Positions 4,333 through 26,188 of a DNA stretch of 29,343 bases are shown here, in pieces (positions within the stretch are counted from its first letter, which is position 1; each line of letters begins with the position of its first letter). The notes under the pieces were generated by a model that was not told the DNA's origin, did no database searches, and was given only the letters and a program-made list of their open reading frames with translations. A program made the translations under genes and the position numbers. Origin of the DNA: a virus; the IMG/VR virus record IMGVR_UViG_3300025645_000331, positions 1-29,343 of that record. One strand, given 5' to 3'.

Positions 4333-5009
4333 GTAATTATACTTTAGCAGTAAATTGGTCAGGAAAAGATGCTCTCTCAGATAGTGATGCTGCGAAAGTT
4401 ATATCTGGTTCTGATTTTAATACTGAATTTACAACAGTAAGAACAGCAGTTAATTCTAAAGCTGATTTAAACGGAGATTCTGGCGAAGATTTTGTTATGA
4501 ATAATGGTACTGCTGCTACACAATCAGCAGGAAACAATACTACTAAAATAGCAACAACAGCTTTTGTTACAACAGCAGTAGCAGCTTTAGACGCAGCAGC
4601 TATTAATGCTATTGTTTATCCTGTAGGTTCTATATACACGACAATATCAAGCACTGCCCCTGCTACTCTTTTAGGAATGGGAACTTGGGCAGCATTTGGA
4701 GCAGGTAAAGTTCCAGTAGGTATTGACGCAAGTGATACAGACTTTGATACTGCTGAAGAAACAGGTGGTACAAAAACACATACTTTAACAACATCTGAGT
4801 TGCCTTCACACACGCATACTTTTAGTTTTACACAGTCACCAAGTACTGCTGGTGCAAATGCACAACAACAGCCTATATCAGCAGATGGTGGCAGTAACAC
4901 TTCTTTCAATGTTATAGGAACTAAAACTACTGATGCTACAGGAAGTGGCTCGGCACATACAAATGTACAACCATATATCGTAGTGTATATGTGGAAACGC
5001 ACAGCATAG
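4329..5009 (+). CDS. Short tail fibre with collar-type C-terminal domain
   Basis: The start ATG overlaps the previous stop by four bases (ATGA). Residues about 54-86 hold the common fibre segment 'QSAGNNTTKIATTAFV'. From about 97 there is a tail-collar/baseplate type domain: YPVGSIYTTISSTAP, GMGTWAAFGAGKVPVGID, TGGTKTHTL, LPSHTHTF (159-165) and a final AHTNVQPYIVVYMWKRTA. In related fibres the HTH histidines coordinate a metal along the trimer axis. It is only 226 residues, so it is a short fibre or tip; receptor contact at the host surface is inferred. Confidence 0.8.
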   Translation: MSNYTLAVNWSGKDALSDSDAAKVISGSDFNTEFTTVRTAVNSKADLNGDSGEDFVMNNGTAATQSAGNNTTKIATTAFVTTAVAALDAAAINAIVYPVGSIYTTISSTAPATLLGMGTWAAFGAGKVPVGIDASDTDFDTAEETGGTKTHTLTTSELPSHTHTFSFTQSPSTAGANAQQQPISADGGSNTSFNVIGTKTTDATGSGSAHTNVQPYIVVYMWKRTA

Positions 5010-5018
5010 GAGAATAGA

Positions 5019-5909
5019 ATGGCATATATAGAAGGAACAGGAATTGGTCAAGGCAAAGGTAATTCAAATTTTATGCTTAATGGCTCATATGTAAATGCAC
5101 CCACATACAATAAAGCCAAGCCAAGAACATTTAAAAAACAAAACACAAGTAGTTTTGACATACCTATTGGTGGTTTAGGTGGTAGGGGTAACAATGTTCA
5201 ATATGCACAAGAGGACTATGATAGACAAATGGCTCTTATGGATAAGATTGGAGAAATGTCAGCAGGTTATTCTACTGATAATACTCTTGGTACTACTGAT
5301 ATAGACTACGAAAACAAGATGATAACTGAGAAGTTATCACCAGAGTTACAAGCTGAATATGATGCGTTACTTGCTCGTAGTAAATTACAAAGAGAAAGAG
5401 CAGCAGCTATGGGTGATGACCCATATGAGATGCAACAGTATCTTTACAATCAAAATCTTGCATTAAAAGTAGATGAGCAAAATGCTTTGCGTGATGATAC
5501 TATGGCTGCTTTACAAGCTAAAGGAATACTAGGTTCTACTGGTGGACAAGGAATGTATGCAGGTGTTGAAGAATCTATATTAAGGTCTAACGCTATGGAC
5601 TTTAATGATGCTATGGCACAATCACAAGCTATGTTTGACATGGAAAGAAAACGAGGACAAGAAGATTTAAGTACTGCGGTTGCATTAGGTACAAAACAAA
5701 TACCATATATTACAGCAGGTACAAATCAAGGAAAAGCAATTGAAATTGGTAATGTTGCAGGTGTAAGTTCTGCTTCAAGAAATATTGCAAATCAACTTGC
5801 AGGTCAAGATTATAGTAAGAGAAAAGGTTTATGGGATATGCTAGGTAGTGGTGGTACTGGAGGGGGTGGTGGTGGACTCTTTGGTATGCTAGGTAGTATT
5901 TTTGGATAA
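5019..5909 (+). CDS. Putative internal (ejection) virion protein with Gly-rich C-terminus
   Basis: The 296-residue protein is preceded by AGGAG 7 bases before the ATG. The middle (about 105-215) is helical and rich in Gln, Met and Ala; the C-terminus has a run of glycines followed by the small hydrophobic helix LFGMLGSIFG (287-296). Glycine linkers followed by an amphipathic helix suit a protein that inserts into a membrane during DNA ejection. It starts the block of three internal-protein genes that ends with the 1260-residue protein. No family is recognised; the role is from context. Confidence 0.65.
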   Translation: MAYIEGTGIGQGKGNSNFMLNGSYVNAPTYNKAKPRTFKKQNTSSFDIPIGGLGGRGNNVQYAQEDYDRQMALMDKIGEMSAGYSTDNTLGTTDIDYENKMITEKLSPELQAEYDALLARSKLQRERAAAMGDDPYEMQQYLYNQNLALKVDEQNALRDDTMAALQAKGILGSTGGQGMYAGVEESILRSNAMDFNDAMAQSQAMFDMERKRGQEDLSTAVALGTKQIPYITAGTNQGKAIEIGNVAGVSSASRNIANQLAGQDYSKRKGLWDMLGSGGTGGGGGGLFGMLGSIFG

Positions 5910-12546: not shown

Positions 12547-12726
12547 TTAGGTAACTGGTAATCTTAATTTATCTCTATCTAAATTTGCTACGGATAGTTC
12601 ACCGTTTAAAGCAAATATCTTTAGCAAAGACGAGCGACTAATTCCATATCGTTCTGCTTTAGCGTCTATAAATTTCAAATCACGCTTGTTAATCTTAATA
12701 TTAATTTGTTCTGTCGCTTCGTTCAT
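12547..12726 (-). CDS. Ribbon-helix-helix (Arc/CopG-like) DNA-binding protein
   Basis: I start at ATG 12726 (59 residues) rather than the TTG four codons upstream; GAGAAA precedes this ATG. The sequence TEQINIKINKRDLKFIDAKAERYGISRSSLLKIFALNGEL fits a ribbon-helix-helix fold: one beta strand with alternating residues (QINIKI), helix A (DLKFIDAKAERYG), turn (IS), helix B (RSSLLKIFALNG). Such proteins bind DNA as dimers at palindromes. A perfect 17-bp palindrome lies just upstream (12764-12780) across its promoter, so autoregulation is likely. It is the last gene of the leftward cluster and has its own promoter. Confidence 0.75.
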   Translation of the reverse strand: MNEATEQINIKINKRDLKFIDAKAERYGISRSSLLKIFALNGELSVANLDRDKLRLPVT

Positions 12727-12751
12727 AACTTTTCTCAATCAAATAAAGCGT

Positions 12752-16905: not shown

Positions 16906-16914
16906 ATTATACAC
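16906..16914 (-). promoter_or_regulatory. Promoter -10 upstream of the SSB-like gene
   Basis: The - strand reads AGTGTATAATAG, giving a perfect TATAAT at 16911-16906, 33 bases before the SSB-like ATG. The -35 region (AATTGT about 16 bases upstream) is poor. The same string AGTGTATAAT recurs upstream of the tRNA-like element (18748-18757). Confidence 0.5.
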
Positions 16915-17303
16915 TAAGATTGTTGAAACAATTTATAAATTTGACGCTCTCTTTTTGGAGGTATCGCCTCTCTACCATTAACCCATCTTGACAATACTGA
17001 TTTATTAATTTTTAATTTCTTAGCAACAGTTGTATATGGAATACCTTTTTGTTTATTTGTTTTAAGTAAATTAATTATGGGTGAATCTTTATTTATTATT
17101 TGCAACTTAGCTTTGAGTTCTTTCCTTTCAAATTCCTCAATCCTTTTTTGTAGATTTAAAATTGTATCGTCATTCCAAATGTATTCTAATTTTTGTTCAT
17201 AACGCTGACATTTTCTTTGAAGTCTATGTATTTCATCTACCAAATAATCTTTAGTAAACTTAACCATATCTTCTTTATCATGTATGTGTTCATGTCTTGG
17301 CAT
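16914..17303 (-). CDS. Coiled-coil protein with C-terminal helix-turn-helix
   Basis: I place the start at ATG 17303, which has GGAGGAG 8 bases upstream, giving 129 residues (the frame extends further but lacks a good site). Residues 20-75 form a long coiled coil (YLVDEIHRLQRKCQRYEQKLEY, ILNLQKRIEEFERKELKAK). The C-terminal part (about 85-129) is a Cro/C1-type helix-turn-helix: IPYTTVAKKLKINKSVLSRWVNGREAIPP. It probably binds DNA as a dimer or larger and may control the early or late promoters. It could also be a host-directed regulator. Confidence 0.7.
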   Translation of the reverse strand: MPRHEHIHDKEDMVKFTKDYLVDEIHRLQRKCQRYEQKLEYIWNDDTILNLQKRIEEFERKELKAKLQIINKDSPIINLLKTNKQKGIPYTTVAKKLKINKSVLSRWVNGREAIPPKRERQIYKLFQQS

Positions 17304-17308
17304 ATTCT

Positions 17309-17524
17309 TTACTCCTCCATGTATGGTGTAGTACTGATTTGAATACAAGCACCATTGAAACAAACAGTATCTATATCCTCTAATGTGCCGAGTTCGTAAT
17401 GAAATATTTTAATTCTATCTGCATTAATTTCAATCAATCTAAGTACATCTGATAGTGGCAAGTTGTTTGCCAAACCTATAAAGCTATCTTCAATTTCTTC
17501 ATCAATAGTTTTTTTCTTAGCCAT
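17309..17524 (-). CDS. Hypothetical 71-residue early protein
   Basis: The product begins MAKKKTIDEEIEDSFIGLANNLPLSDVLRLIEINADRIKIFHYEL and ends TPYMEE; it is acidic and mostly helical. Its ATG overlaps the stop of the upstream gene (TAATG). The codons for its last residues hold the ribosome site of the HTH gene, so the two are coupled. No family recognised. Confidence 0.6.
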   Translation of the reverse strand: MAKKKTIDEEIEDSFIGLANNLPLSDVLRLIEINADRIKIFHYELGTLEDIDTVCFNGACIQISTTPYMEE

Positions 17525-17784
17525 TATGTTTCCCCTACAAAAATGTATTCACCAACAGTACATGACTCACCGAATTGATTCTTAACTTTCTTATCTCTTG
17601 TTAGGATATCAATTCCTTTTTTTCTTAACTCATGTATGACTGCTGACAAACGATAGACTCCGCATTTGTTCCATGAATCCAAAGCATTAATCTTTCCATG
17701 CATAAAGTATTCATCGTTAACATCTTGGACTACATTTGATTTAGAGTATTCAAGTACTCTTTCTTGTTGCTTAGAAAGTTTCAT
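17524..17784 (-). CDS. Winged-helix-like protein
   Basis: The 86-residue protein starts MKLSKQQERVLEYSKSN and contains INALDSWNKCGVYRLSAVIHELRKKGIDILTRDKK followed by a strand pair ending VGEYIFVGE. The 'GVYRLSAVIHELRKKG-I-I' pattern is typical of small phage helix-turn-helix proteins in which the second helix is followed by a beta wing. It may be a transcription or replication regulator. It overlaps the gene upstream by 14 bases. Confidence 0.7.
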   Translation of the reverse strand: MKLSKQQERVLEYSKSNVVQDVNDEYFMHGKINALDSWNKCGVYRLSAVIHELRKKGIDILTRDKKVKNQFGESCTVGEYIFVGET

Positions 17785-20417: not shown

Positions 20418-20432
20418 CGATAATCATTCGCA
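20418..20432. promoter_or_regulatory. Weak Fur-box-like sequence
   Basis: CGATAAT-C-ATTCGCA matches 12 of 15 positions of the 7-1-7 Fur consensus TGATAATnATTATCA. It lies between the stop of the 89-residue gene and its terminator, not at a promoter. It would be ignored alone, but a perfect site exists at 22245-22259. Confidence 0.3.
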
Positions 20433-20437
20433 TTAAG

Positions 20438-20466
20438 TACCCGACCAAAACAGTCGGGTATTTTTT
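20438..20466 (+). terminator. Rho-independent terminator
   Basis: TACCCGAC (20438-20445) and GTCGGGTA (20453-20460) form an 8-bp perfect stem with a 7-base loop (CAAAACA), followed directly by TTTTTT (20461-20466). It closes the transcription unit of the 89-residue early gene. Confidence 0.93.
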
Positions 20467-22154: not shown

Positions 22155-22165
22155 GCTAAGAGCAG

Positions 22166-22185
22166 CATGGGGCAGGGGCCCCATG
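22166..22185. other. Hairpin 6, GC-rich 8-bp stem
   Basis: CATGGGGC-AGGG-GCCCCATG (22166-22185) is a perfect stem of eight pairs, six of them G-C, standing out in an AT-rich genome. Confidence 0.7.
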
Positions 22186-22200
22186 TACCGAGCAGTACAT
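22183..22200. other. Hairpin 7, alternative to hairpin 6
   Basis: ATGTAC-CGAGCA-GTACAT (22183-22200) is a 6-bp stem that shares three bases with hairpin 6, so both cannot form fully at once; this allows a switch between two folds. Confidence 0.4.
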
Positions 22201-22242
22201 ATATAAACCCTCCTAATCACAAAAAACAGGATTTGAAAAAAG

Positions 22243-22261
22243 AATGATAATCATTATCATT
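22243..22261. promoter_or_regulatory. Fur box over the terminase/late promoter
   Basis: AATGATAAT-C-ATTATCATT is a perfect 9-1-9 palindrome. It contains TGATAAT-C-ATTATCA (22245-22259), a 15 of 15 match to the 7-1-7 Fur consensus, and 22240-22258 matches 17 of 19 bases of the classical Fur box. It lies directly upstream of the -10 element at 22269, where a bound repressor would block polymerase. The ligand is presumably the host ferric uptake regulator; no Fur gene is in the window. Confidence 0.75.
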
Positions 22262-22264
22262 ACT

Positions 22265-22274
22265 GTGTTATAAT
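22265..22274 (+). promoter_or_regulatory. Late promoter -10 (extended), before the terminase genes
   Basis: GTGTTATAAT with TGT-TATAAT (TATAAT 22269-22274). The -35 position (about 22246-22251) is inside the Fur palindrome and reads GATAAT, a poor match, so the extended -10 probably carries the promoter. Transcription should begin near 22281 and run through the terminase and head genes. Confidence 0.65.
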
Positions 22275-22303
22275 ACCCACAAGACAACTCTAATCTGAGC
22301 CTT

Positions 22304-22714
22304 ATGGCAGAACCTAAGAAAAAACGAGGAAACCCTAATCTTCATAAAGGTATGAAATCACTTAACGGTGATGGTAGACCAAAGGGTTCTGTAAACAAGT
22401 TTACTGCTTTGGCACGAGAGTTAATGTCAAACAAATCTCCAGAGATAGTAGAAAAGGTTATAGAAAAAGCTATGGAAGGGGATGTACATTGCCTTAAAAT
22501 GTGTCTGGATAGAATCCTCCCTGTTCACAAAGCTGTAGACTCTACACGCACTAAGGCTGATGCCCAAGTGATAATTAATGTTTCCTCTCTGGATAACATT
22601 CAACAAAAACTTGATGTGACTCCAGAGGGTGAACTTATCGAGCCAATAGAAAAAACCGATGATGAGGTTATTGTTAATATAGACTCAACACCAATGGCAG
22701 AAAAGTTTGGCTGA
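22304..22714 (+). CDS. terS: Terminase small subunit (putative)
   Basis: The 136-residue protein begins with a basic tail (EPKKKRGNPNLHKG), then GDGRPKGSVNKFTALARELMSNKSPEIVEKVIEKAMEGDVHCLKMCLDRILP (32-83), the helical DNA-binding pattern common in small terminase-like phage proteins (DUF5681-like). The C-terminus is acidic. It lies directly before the large terminase and overlaps its TTG start by eight bases. The usual role is to recognise the packaging site and load the motor. Call by position and pattern. Confidence 0.8.
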   Translation: MAEPKKKRGNPNLHKGMKSLNGDGRPKGSVNKFTALARELMSNKSPEIVEKVIEKAMEGDVHCLKMCLDRILPVHKAVDSTRTKADAQVIINVSSLDNIQQKLDVTPEGELIEPIEKTDDEVIVNIDSTPMAEKFG

Positions 22715-23960
22715 ATTAGACATTAATTTACACCCTGCTCAACTGCAGATATTCCAATCGAATAAAAGGTTTAAGATAGTCGCTGCTGGAAGGCGATTTG
22801 GAAAGTCCTACCTATCTGCTTGGTTATTATTAATAAACGCTATACAGTCCGAATCTAAGGATGTATTTTATATAGCACCTACCTTTCAACAAGCTAAAGA
22901 CATTATGTGGGCTATGCTGAAAGAACTAGGAAGAGATTTAATAATACAAGCATACGAGAACACCGCAGTTCTTACTCTGATAAATGGTAGGAAAATCTAT
23001 TTAAAGGGAAGTGATAGACCAGAAACCTTGAGGGGCGTGGGGCTTTCTTATGTCGTGCTAGACGAATATGCGTCTATGAAACCTATTGTATGGGAACAGA
23101 TTATACGACCAACACTTGCTGATGTAAAAGGTAGAGCCTTATTTATAGGTACACCTGCTGGTAAAAATCATTTCTTTGATTTGTATCAAGACGCACTAGA
23201 AGATGAGGAAAACTGGGATGCGTTCCAATTTACCTCTGTTGATAATCCTTTCTTACCTCAAGAAGAAATAGAAGCTGCGAGTAAGTCAATGTCGTCTATG
23301 TCTTTTAGGCAAGAGTTTGAAGCGTCATTTGAAACCTTTAGTGGTGGAATATTTAAAGAAGATTGGTTTAAAGAGGATGACGAACCAGATGAAGGTAGTT
23401 ACTGTATAGCAGTTGACCCAGCAGGTTACGAGGATAGTGAGAAAGAACGCAATCTTAAACGCTCTCGACTAGATGAAACCTCTATTGCTGTAGTAAAGAT
23501 AGACCGTGATAAGTGGTGGGTTAAAGATATCATACATGGTCGTTGGAACATTAAAGAAACAGCTAAAAAAATTCTTGGTGCTGCGATTAGGGTTGAATGT
23601 AACTCTATAGGTATAGAAACTGGAGCATTGCGTAATGCTATATTACCTTATTTGGAAGATGAAATGAGGACAGAAAACAAGTGGCTGTCGCTCGTAGAGT
23701 TGCGTCACGGTGGTAAAAAGAAAATAGATAGAATAACATGGTCGCTACAAGGTAGAATGGAACATGGTCAAATAACATTTAATCCAGATAAAGACTGGAG
23801 GGCGTTCAAAAACCAAATGTTAGATTTTCCAAACAAGATGGCACATGACGATTTACTCGACTCGTTAGCGTATATAGACCAAGTGAGCGTAAGTGACTTC
23901 GCCCACACAATCGAACTAGAGGAAGAATGGAGTCCAGTAGATGATATTGCAGGATATTGA
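22707..23960 (+). CDS. terL: Terminase large subunit (packaging ATPase/nuclease)
   Basis: The TTG at 22707 is used as start because Walker A comes so early: AAGRRFGKS (26-34). Walker B with catalytic Glu is VVLDE (116-120) and the coupling motif is FIGTPAG (147-152). The RNase H-like nuclease follows: D237 in IAVDPAG, GIETGALRN (302-310), and the acidic DDLLD (381-385). The protein drives DNA into the prohead and cuts it. At 417 residues it is on the short side for the family but all motifs are present. It overlaps genes on both sides. Confidence 0.95.
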   Translation: MAELDINLHPAQLQIFQSNKRFKIVAAGRRFGKSYLSAWLLLINAIQSESKDVFYIAPTFQQAKDIMWAMLKELGRDLIIQAYENTAVLTLINGRKIYLKGSDRPETLRGVGLSYVVLDEYASMKPIVWEQIIRPTLADVKGRALFIGTPAGKNHFFDLYQDALEDEENWDAFQFTSVDNPFLPQEEIEAASKSMSSMSFRQEFEASFETFSGGIFKEDWFKEDDEPDEGSYCIAVDPAGYEDSEKERNLKRSRLDETSIAVVKIDRDKWWVKDIIHGRWNIKETAKKILGAAIRVECNSIGIETGALRNAILPYLEDEMRTENKWLSLVELRHGGKKKIDRITWSLQGRMEHGQITFNPDKDWRAFKNQMLDFPNKMAHDDLLDSLAYIDQVSVSDFAHTIELEEEWSPVDDIAGY

Positions 23961-24180: not shown

Positions 24181-24191
24181 AACTGTGTTTT

Positions 24192-24201
24192 GTGTTATAA
24201 T
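24192..24201 (+). promoter_or_regulatory. Promoter -10 (extended) before the portal gene
   Basis: GTGTTATAAT again, with TGT-TATAAT (24196-24201), in the 49-base gap before the portal start. It is the same ten bases as at 22265, 20934 and (- strand) 19860. The -35 is poor. It may boost head-gene expression independently of the Fur-covered promoter. Confidence 0.6.
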
Positions 24202-24229: not shown

Positions 24230-26188
24230 ATGCTTGACAAGAAAGAACTACAATACCAAGCCCTAGCTAGTTGGTTAATGTATAGATTAGATGGGTGGCG
24301 TAATCATCGTTCTCAAAACTATACTGCCAAGTGGGATGAATACTATCGTATCTGGCGAGGTATCTGGGATTCTTCTGACCGTACAAGAACATCAGAACGC
24401 TCAAGAATTATTGCACCTGCTACACAACAAGCTGTAGAATCATCTGTTGCCGAACTCGAGGAAGCAACATTTGGCAGGGGAAAATGGTTCGATATACAAG
24501 ATGACATGCTTGACCAAGACAATAGTGAAGCAGAATACATAAGAAATCTATTACAAGAAGATTTAGAAAAAACTGGCTGTAAAGATGCAATTGCAGAAGT
24601 ATTTTTAAACGCTGCAATCTACGGAACAGGTATTGCAAAAATTGTTGTTAATCAAAGTATAGAAAGAGCACCATCAGAACAGCCTGTTGAAGGTTCAATG
24701 ACTGGTATGCGTGGTATTACTGAGTACTCATCTATTGATGTTAAAGTAGAACCTATATCACCACACGAATTTTTGTTTGACCCTGCTGCAAATACAATTG
24801 ATGAAGCATTAGGTGTCGCCCACGAAGTAATTAAACCTAGATATCATGTAGTTGAGGGGATTCAATCAGGCATATACCGTGATGTACCCCTAGATGGTGA
24901 TTACGATACTGCAAAATTAGGGTTTGATGGAGAAATAAAACAAGCAGATGAGTCTGATTCTGTCAAAATAACAGAGTATTGGGGTTTAGTACCTAAAAGA
25001 TTCTTAAAGAAAAGTGCTGATAAGGATGACTTTGAATATACAAAGAAAGATGAGTTAGTAGAGGCTGTAGTAACTATATGTAATGATGAGTACATCTTGC
25101 GTGTAGAAGAAAATGCCTTTATGATGAAGGATAGACCCTTTGTTGCGTACCAACATGACATTATTCCTAACCGTTTTTGGGGTAGAGGGGTAGTTGAAAA
25201 AGGATATAACGCACAAAAAGCACTTGATGCAGAGATGAGGGCAAGAATTGACTCTATGGCACTGCGTAACACTATGATGATGGCTGCAGATGCTACTCGT
25301 TTACCTCGTGGAAGTAAATTTGAGGTTAGGGCAGGTAAGACTGTACTAACTAATGGTAACCCTAGAGATGCAATCATGCCATTAGACATGGGTCAAATGG
25401 ATGCAAGTACATTTAACCAAGTATCTAGTCTACAAAACATGATTCAAATGGGTACTGGTAGTGCTGATATGTCTATGCCACAACAAGAAACTGCAAGTGG
25501 TATGTCAATGATGCAGTCAGCGTCTATCAAGCGTCAGAAACGCACCTTGATGAATTTCCAGAACACATTTCTTATACCAATGATTAACAAAGCTATGTAT
25601 CGTAAGATACAGTTTGATGTTGATAGATACCCTGTAACTGATTATAAGTTTATACCTTATTCTACTATGGGTATTATGGCAAAAGAGTTAGAAATGCAAC
25701 AGATGGTGCAAATGTTACAGTCTATACCTGCTGATTCACCTGCATTTAATGTAATATTGCTCGCTATGTTCCAAAATTCTAGTATACATAACCGTGACCA
25801 GATTGTATTTGGACTACAGCAAGGGCTACAAACAGACCCACAGATGCAACAAATGCAAGATATGGCTACTCAGTTACAAATGCAACAAGCACAAGCTACG
25901 ATACAAAAGACAACAGCAGAAGCAGCAGAAGAAAACGCTAAAGCACTTAAACATCAAGCAGAAGCAGCAGCATTAGTACCAACTGAAATAGATGCACAAG
26001 CTAAAGCTATTAGATTGCAAAGAGAAGCTATGGGAATAGAAAAAGACAAGGTAGATATGGCAAATACAATTTCTGAAACAGCTAGAAATCTACCAGAAGT
26101 AGAACATTTAAAATCTGAAACAATTTTGAACCTTGCTAGAGCAAAACAAGCAGGTAAAAAATCAGATATAAGTACACGAATACAATAA
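24230..26188 (+). CDS. Portal protein, podovirus type
   Basis: The 652-residue protein has the usual portal opening (RLDGWRNHRSQNYTAKWDEYYRIWRGIWDSSDRTRTSERSRIIAP, about 20-62), the clip/wing region with HEFLFDPAANTIDEA (180-194) and DRPFVAYQHDIIPNRFWGRGVVE (about 301-323). The C-terminal 120 residues are Gln/Ala-rich coiled coil (MQQMQDMATQLQMQQ...), which fits the barrel extending into the capsid as in P22-like portals. It forms the 12-subunit ring where DNA enters and the adaptor binds. Confidence 0.88.
   Translation: MLDKKELQYQALASWLMYRLDGWRNHRSQNYTAKWDEYYRIWRGIWDSSDRTRTSERSRIIAPATQQAVESSVAELEEATFGRGKWFDIQDDMLDQDNSEAEYIRNLLQEDLEKTGCKDAIAEVFLNAAIYGTGIAKIVVNQSIERAPSEQPVEGSMTGMRGITEYSSIDVKVEPISPHEFLFDPAANTIDEALGVAHEVIKPRYHVVEGIQSGIYRDVPLDGDYDTAKLGFDGEIKQADESDSVKITEYWGLVPKRFLKKSADKDDFEYTKKDELVEAVVTICNDEYILRVEENAFMMKDRPFVAYQHDIIPNRFWGRGVVEKGYNAQKALDAEMRARIDSMALRNTMMMAADATRLPRGSKFEVRAGKTVLTNGNPRDAIMPLDMGQMDASTFNQVSSLQNMIQMGTGSADMSMPQQETASGMSMMQSASIKRQKRTLMNFQNTFLIPMINKAMYRKIQFDVDRYPVTDYKFIPYSTMGIMAKELEMQQMVQMLQSIPADSPAFNVILLAMFQNSSIHNRDQIVFGLQQGLQTDPQMQQMQDMATQLQMQQAQATIQKTTAEAAEENAKALKHQAEAAALVPTEIDAQAKAIRLQREAMGIEKDKVDMANTISETARNLPEVEHLKSETILNLARAKQAGKKSDISTRIQ

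Follow-up and report, generated by a model that had tools for sequence, protein, structure and literature searches.

A putative host Fur operator at the terminase promoter of an uncultured phage and some of its relatives

Introduction

Can a phage place its DNA-packaging genes under the iron-responsive repressor of its host? The question is raised by a 19-bp palindrome of the Fur-box type in a 29,343-nucleotide stretch of viral DNA (hereafter the window, meaning the whole stretch analyzed), where it precedes the terminase genes. An earlier note on this DNA had read the palindrome as a perfect Fur box across a late promoter. Here, we evaluate that reading from the sequence and promoter context of the palindrome, its distribution among related and unrelated phages, and its likeness to known Fur-controlled genes.

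Results

A perfect Fur box overlaps a predicted terminase promoter

Re-reading of the window confirmed the sequence and coordinates of the palindrome (Table 1) and, by eye, the 17/19 fit to the classical Fur box noted previously at 22240–22258. The core, TGATAATCATTATCA, agrees at 14 of 14 fixed positions with the 7-1-7 inverted repeat TGATAATNATTATCA, which is one form of Fur operator, the alternative being at least three GATAAT-like hexamers. A scan of the window returned no other perfect match, and the 19-mer is exact and single-copy. Under a first-order Markov model, the window is expected to hold 6.8e-4 exact 15-mer cores and 6.2e-6 exact 19-mers by chance. With up to three mismatches allowed, five matches to the consensus are found in total and 5.07 are expected; the four weaker ones are thus at chance level, and only the perfect core stands out. 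Of the 19 positions of the Vibrio consensus AATGATAATAATTATCATT, the palindrome shares 18, the exception being the center base. Aliivibrio Fur shifts the same consensus in gels (PMC7536154). Fur operators in Vibrio and other gamma-proteobacteria control iron-uptake genes, whereas the window box is in a phage and at packaging genes.

The box lies 9 bp upstream of a predicted extended –10 element, composed of TATAAT (22269–22274) and an extended TG (22266–22267), and the start codon of terS follows 45 bp downstream of the box. No good –35 element was found at this predicted promoter; a –35 hexamer at 17-bp spacing (22246–22251) would fall within the box, which spans –36 to –22 if transcription starts near 22281. 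The major head protein is also encoded downstream, after the terminase, and from gene content we infer that the terminase and head genes are expressed late. Since the portal gene has an extended –10 promoter of its own, the box would directly control at most the terminase transcript in the window. Of the earlier proposal that it sits at the promoter for both terminase and head genes, the terminase part therefore stands, while the head part falls to the separate, unboxed promoter.

Two further elements lie upstream. A conserved G-rich motif, GGGGCAGGGGCCCC, is present at 22160–22190, with GGGGGAGGCTCAT at equivalent places in relatives, and recalls a cosQ-like element or a packaging element of these phages. 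The weaker Fur-like site at 20418–20432, listed in the earlier note at 12 of 15, could not be upheld as a second regulatory site of the window phage: its score is at chance level alone, and its neighbors are an ORF stop on one side and, on the other, a conserved terminator-like hairpin (about 20439–20464) followed by a T run, with no promoter there. Its better-matching orthologues are at positions 355 (L013), 673 (L014) and 71 (L043), and the window copy is decayed.

Table 1. Positions of the elements and genes discussed, in window coordinates.
Feature	Position	Strand	Remarks
Ribbon-helix-helix-like protein	12547–12738		phage-encoded
HTH_3-like protein	16914–17363		phage-encoded
Winged-helix protein	17524–17784		phage-encoded
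Degenerate box CGATAATCATTCGCA	20418–20432	.	11/14; orthologues 13/14 in L013, L014, L043
19-bp palindrome AATGATAATCATTATCATT	22243–22261	.	perfect 7-1-7 Fur box; core 22245–22259; center about –29
Extended –10 TGTTATAAT for terS	22266–22274	+	predicted start near 22281; kept in close relatives with and without box
terS candidate	22304–22714	+	136 aa, DUF5681; first gene past the box; directly before terL
Terminase large subunit (terL)	22707–23960	+	phrog_2, E 4e-47
Second extended –10 TGTGTTATAAT, before portal	24191–24201	+	unboxed in window, boxed in relatives
Portal gene	24230–26188	+	first gene past second promoter

Boxes recur patchily at two promoters in related phages

Relatives were taken from 80 TerL relatives in IMG/VR and two further sets centered on other members, giving a non-redundant set of 103 loci, to which the window came in addition. 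When close relatives are aligned at terS, TGTGTTATAATACC and its flanks are common to them, and the stretch from an upstream ACAAAAAAC motif to TGTGTTATAATACC is either boxed, or unboxed and then usually shorter. The window box recurs in L001 and L088, and TGAGAATCATTCTCA occupies identical spacing in L018–L022, L071, L074 and L086. Compared with the window box, TGAGAATCATTCTCA is altered in both half-sites and is still of the Fur type. L002–L015 (TerL 95–97% identical) carry no terS box and retain the promoter, so the box is dispensable.

Other relatives have Fur-type boxes at one or both of the terS and portal promoters, with half-sites TGATAAT, TGAGAAT or TGCGAAT, or in one case with a GATAAT array. 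Portal promoters with a box are those of L017–L022, L024, L118, L120 and L147: in L017–L022, TGAGAAT..ATTCTCA or ATTCGCA stands 19 bp upstream of the –10, and in the remaining four TGAGAATGATTATCA stands 24 bp upstream of it. The portal promoter of L059 carries four tandem GATAAT hexamers and that of L062, whose TerL is near-identical, carries two; E. coli Fur is reported to need at least three (PMC7536154). Because mixed forms such as TGAGAAT..ATTATCA occur, as Fur permits, we do not claim that the left and right halves of the box co-vary strictly.

The related loci, 688 kb in all, contain 33 sites that match at 13/14 or better, and 23 of these are in the 23 kb of sequence directly ahead of terS and portal. 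After upstream regions had been collapsed at 90% identity, 12 of the 81 distinct regions carried a site. Permuting the half-site in 420 ways gave a mean of 0.16; none of the permutations beats the Fur order, which takes first rank, and its best rivals are near-shifts of it. Recurrence at orthologous promoters thus exceeds chance, with a patchy presence. On the TerL tree, from which the L039 terS label was left out as an artefact of truncated upstream sequence, boxed and unboxed phages are interleaved, so that repeated gain or loss of boxes has taken place. Lack of conservation in relatives, which the earlier note had named among the outcomes that would refute its reading, was checked with a mixed but positive answer: many close relatives are without the box, yet others have it again at these promoters, often with unchanged spacing. 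The box centers fall at –29, –31, –39, –44, –50 and +11 relative to the predicted start; helical phase varies and most boxes overlap the promoter, which fits repressor sites.

One phage, G005, has four boxes in its genome. Its perfect TGAGAATGATTCTCA at 33048–33062 (L090) falls inside a tail gene, at its end, and 22 bp upstream of the gene that follows; by its position it is either a chance match or an unusual operator.

The box is probably read by a host protein

A search for Fur homologues (PF01475) gave no match in 12 phage records, some of which are fragments, and control genomes were positive. The reader is therefore probably a host protein. Among the regulators encoded by the phage itself, the ribbon-helix-helix protein was rejected as the reader, being 97% identical in G010, which is unboxed at both promoters.

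The host class cannot be read from the motif by itself, since SAR11 Fur boxes, where present, are likewise described as 7-1-7 (PMC4771312); in strain HTCC1062 a classic Fur box was not found (PMC3090418). Searches for the host gave little: TerL returned distant Ignavibacteria matches only and no host genome from GTDB genomes, and ArdC on plasmids was about 40% identical across many lineages with no host signal. A near-DNA search of cultured phages gave no match, and the window has no tRNAs. A sub-threshold Rfam match to a Staphylococcus sRNA was rejected. Marine Pelagibacter, Roseobacter and further phages give distant structural matches, and the uncultured window phage is probably marine.

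Perfect Fur boxes adjoin terminase genes in unrelated phages, and cosQ in lambda

In IMG/VR, 97 stretches contain the exact 19-mer and four contain one permuted palindrome. The 97 stretches amount to 39 distinct contexts; some are prophage contigs, in which part of the DNA may be that of the host. Most commonly, the 19-mer is directly beside cos and terminase small-subunit genes of unrelated families: 21 stretches belong to the lambdoid cos cluster (Nu1-type and DUF1441-type), and further ones are beside HK97-type phrog_83 (6), phrog_641 (2) and the window phage's own family (L269, a relative in which the box is beside a G-rich cos-like motif). In one context each, the 19-mer precedes a terminase large subunit and a major head protein whose PHROG families are also those of the window genes.

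Two other settings were encountered. In many prophage contigs, a perfect Fur box is repeatedly upstream of a phage gene of phrog_2473 (about 143 aa; function unassigned), as at L185:784–1212 and similarly in L194, L207, L215, L217, L224, L225, L229 and L246, which makes this gene a candidate iron-regulated accessory gene. In the 118-kb viral contig L179, around 4870–5080 (also in L186 and L222), a tight array of Fur-like palindromes with TTTAAAAAGCGG-like linkers looks like a Fur sponge.

Phage lambda (L277) has a single perfect box at 48452–48466, a few bases from cosQ; boxes in DE3 and 2H10 are also perfect, and phage 21 has a 13/14 version. The Qin prophage of E. coli MG1655 (L286) carries a box of the same sequence as that of lambda, again directly left of cosQ, at 1636593–1636607, which is 226 bp before nohA, a Nu1 homologue. 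nohA appears among Fur-repressed operons in Table 4 of PMC3688515, citing Chen 2007 and Vassinova and Kozyrev 2000. What lambda, nohA and the window have in common is a perfect 7-1-7 Fur box ahead of the gene for the terminase small subunit. They differ in that, for lambda and nohA, about 225 bp or more separate box and gene, with the box left of cosQ (GGGTCCT) in temperate or cryptic lambdoid phages, whereas the window box is on the terS core promoter with no lambdoid cosQ beside it, in a phage unrelated to the lambdoids, for which no integrase was recognized in the window and whose relatives add portal boxes. The stx1 promoter of Shiga-toxin phages is likewise a phage promoter with a Fur box, and its expression rises as iron drops (PMC5552940), but the gene controlled is an accessory toxin gene and not a packaging gene.

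Full-text literature searches returned no report that places Fur boxes of phages, lambda included, at cos or at late genes, nor one of Fur control exercised through a promoter-core operator, at a portal promoter, in this phage group or phage-wide. The earlier statement that no precedent is established is partly wrong, given the entry for nohA in that table and the lambda box beside cos; for settings of the window type, it stands within the literature searched.

Discussion

Taken together, we consider it likely that the palindrome is an operator for the host Fe2+-dependent repressor Fur at the terS promoter, and that its effect is probably repressive. The earlier proposal of a Fur operator over the terminase promoter is thereby strengthened, by (i) recurrence of the box, (ii) the altered forms in relatives that are still of the Fur-box type, and (iii) the negative search for Fur genes in the 12 phage records. 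We infer Fur binding, the direction of control and the response to iron from DNA sequence. In the proposed mechanism, holo-Fur occupying –36 to –22 would obstruct RNA polymerase at the terS–terL extended –10 promoter, such that terminase expression would be lowered while intracellular Fe2+ is sufficient. Release would come with low iron, with inactivation of Fur, or with titration of Fur by replicating phage genomes, and in relatives the portal/head promoter would be under the same control. Titration by phage DNA could also lift repression late in infection; that it serves as a copy-number cue is speculative. Against an operator, it can be argued that many close relatives do without the box, that several boxes are away from promoters, and that a lytic phage gains no obvious benefit from repressing packaging in iron-replete cells, unless the repression is temporary.

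Multicopy Fur boxes titrate Fur, as exploited in the FURTA assay, and a serious rival to the operator is that phage boxes are decoys that draw Fur away from the promoters of the host and so turn iron uptake on, with promoter overlap being secondary. Boxes away from promoters, such as sites of the 20418 type, several boxes in one genome, as in G005, and the tight array in the unrelated contig L179 are all in keeping with natural titration. Yet the window has a single good box, and most boxes of the phage group are at two promoters, often at fixed spacing, and we regard titration as the main function as unlikely. A phage-encoded regulator, for which the likeness to a Fur box would be incidental, could also own the palindrome; the phage encodes three proteins of DNA-binding type (Table 1), and several similar sites per genome are typical of phage operators. 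We judge this improbable, because the variant half-sites and GATAAT arrays track the degeneracy of Fur and the exact 19-mer is common to unrelated phages with other regulators; the argument from G010 counts against the ribbon-helix-helix protein only.

That the element belongs to a cos or packaging site, and acts in DNA cleavage or packaging and not in transcription, would fit the position of the lambda box and the perfect or near-perfect boxes adjoining cosQ in DE3, 2H10, phage 21 and many lambdoid contigs, as well as L269. It does not fit the portal-promoter boxes, which are about 2 kb from terS, nor the overlap of the window box with a core promoter, and unrelated TerS families, which are expected not to share a TerS site, have the same sequence; a cos-related role is less probable still. 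As for a functionless chance match or relic, the many close relatives that lack the box speak in its favor, but recurrence at the same two promoters over scattered branches of the TerL tree, and the first rank of the Fur half-site in the permutation test, leave it very little probability.

The Fur operator that we favor for the window may be one instance of something broader. We advance only tentatively, and with some doubt, that host Fur has been recruited widely and convergently to regulate packaging, with perfect boxes at terminase/cos or head promoters of unrelated phages (lambda included), such that packaging is timed or gated by intracellular iron or by replicating phage DNA that titrates Fur. 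This pattern, of boxes by terminase genes in several unrelated groups and at lambda cosQ, is testable in lambda, the best-studied phage. If the operator is real, late-gene expression in an abundant group of uncultured phages would depend on host iron status, and virus production would be tied to iron through a transcription factor and not through receptors or tail iron, as in the Ferrojan idea. Host iron status may thus influence the timing of DNA packaging in some phages.
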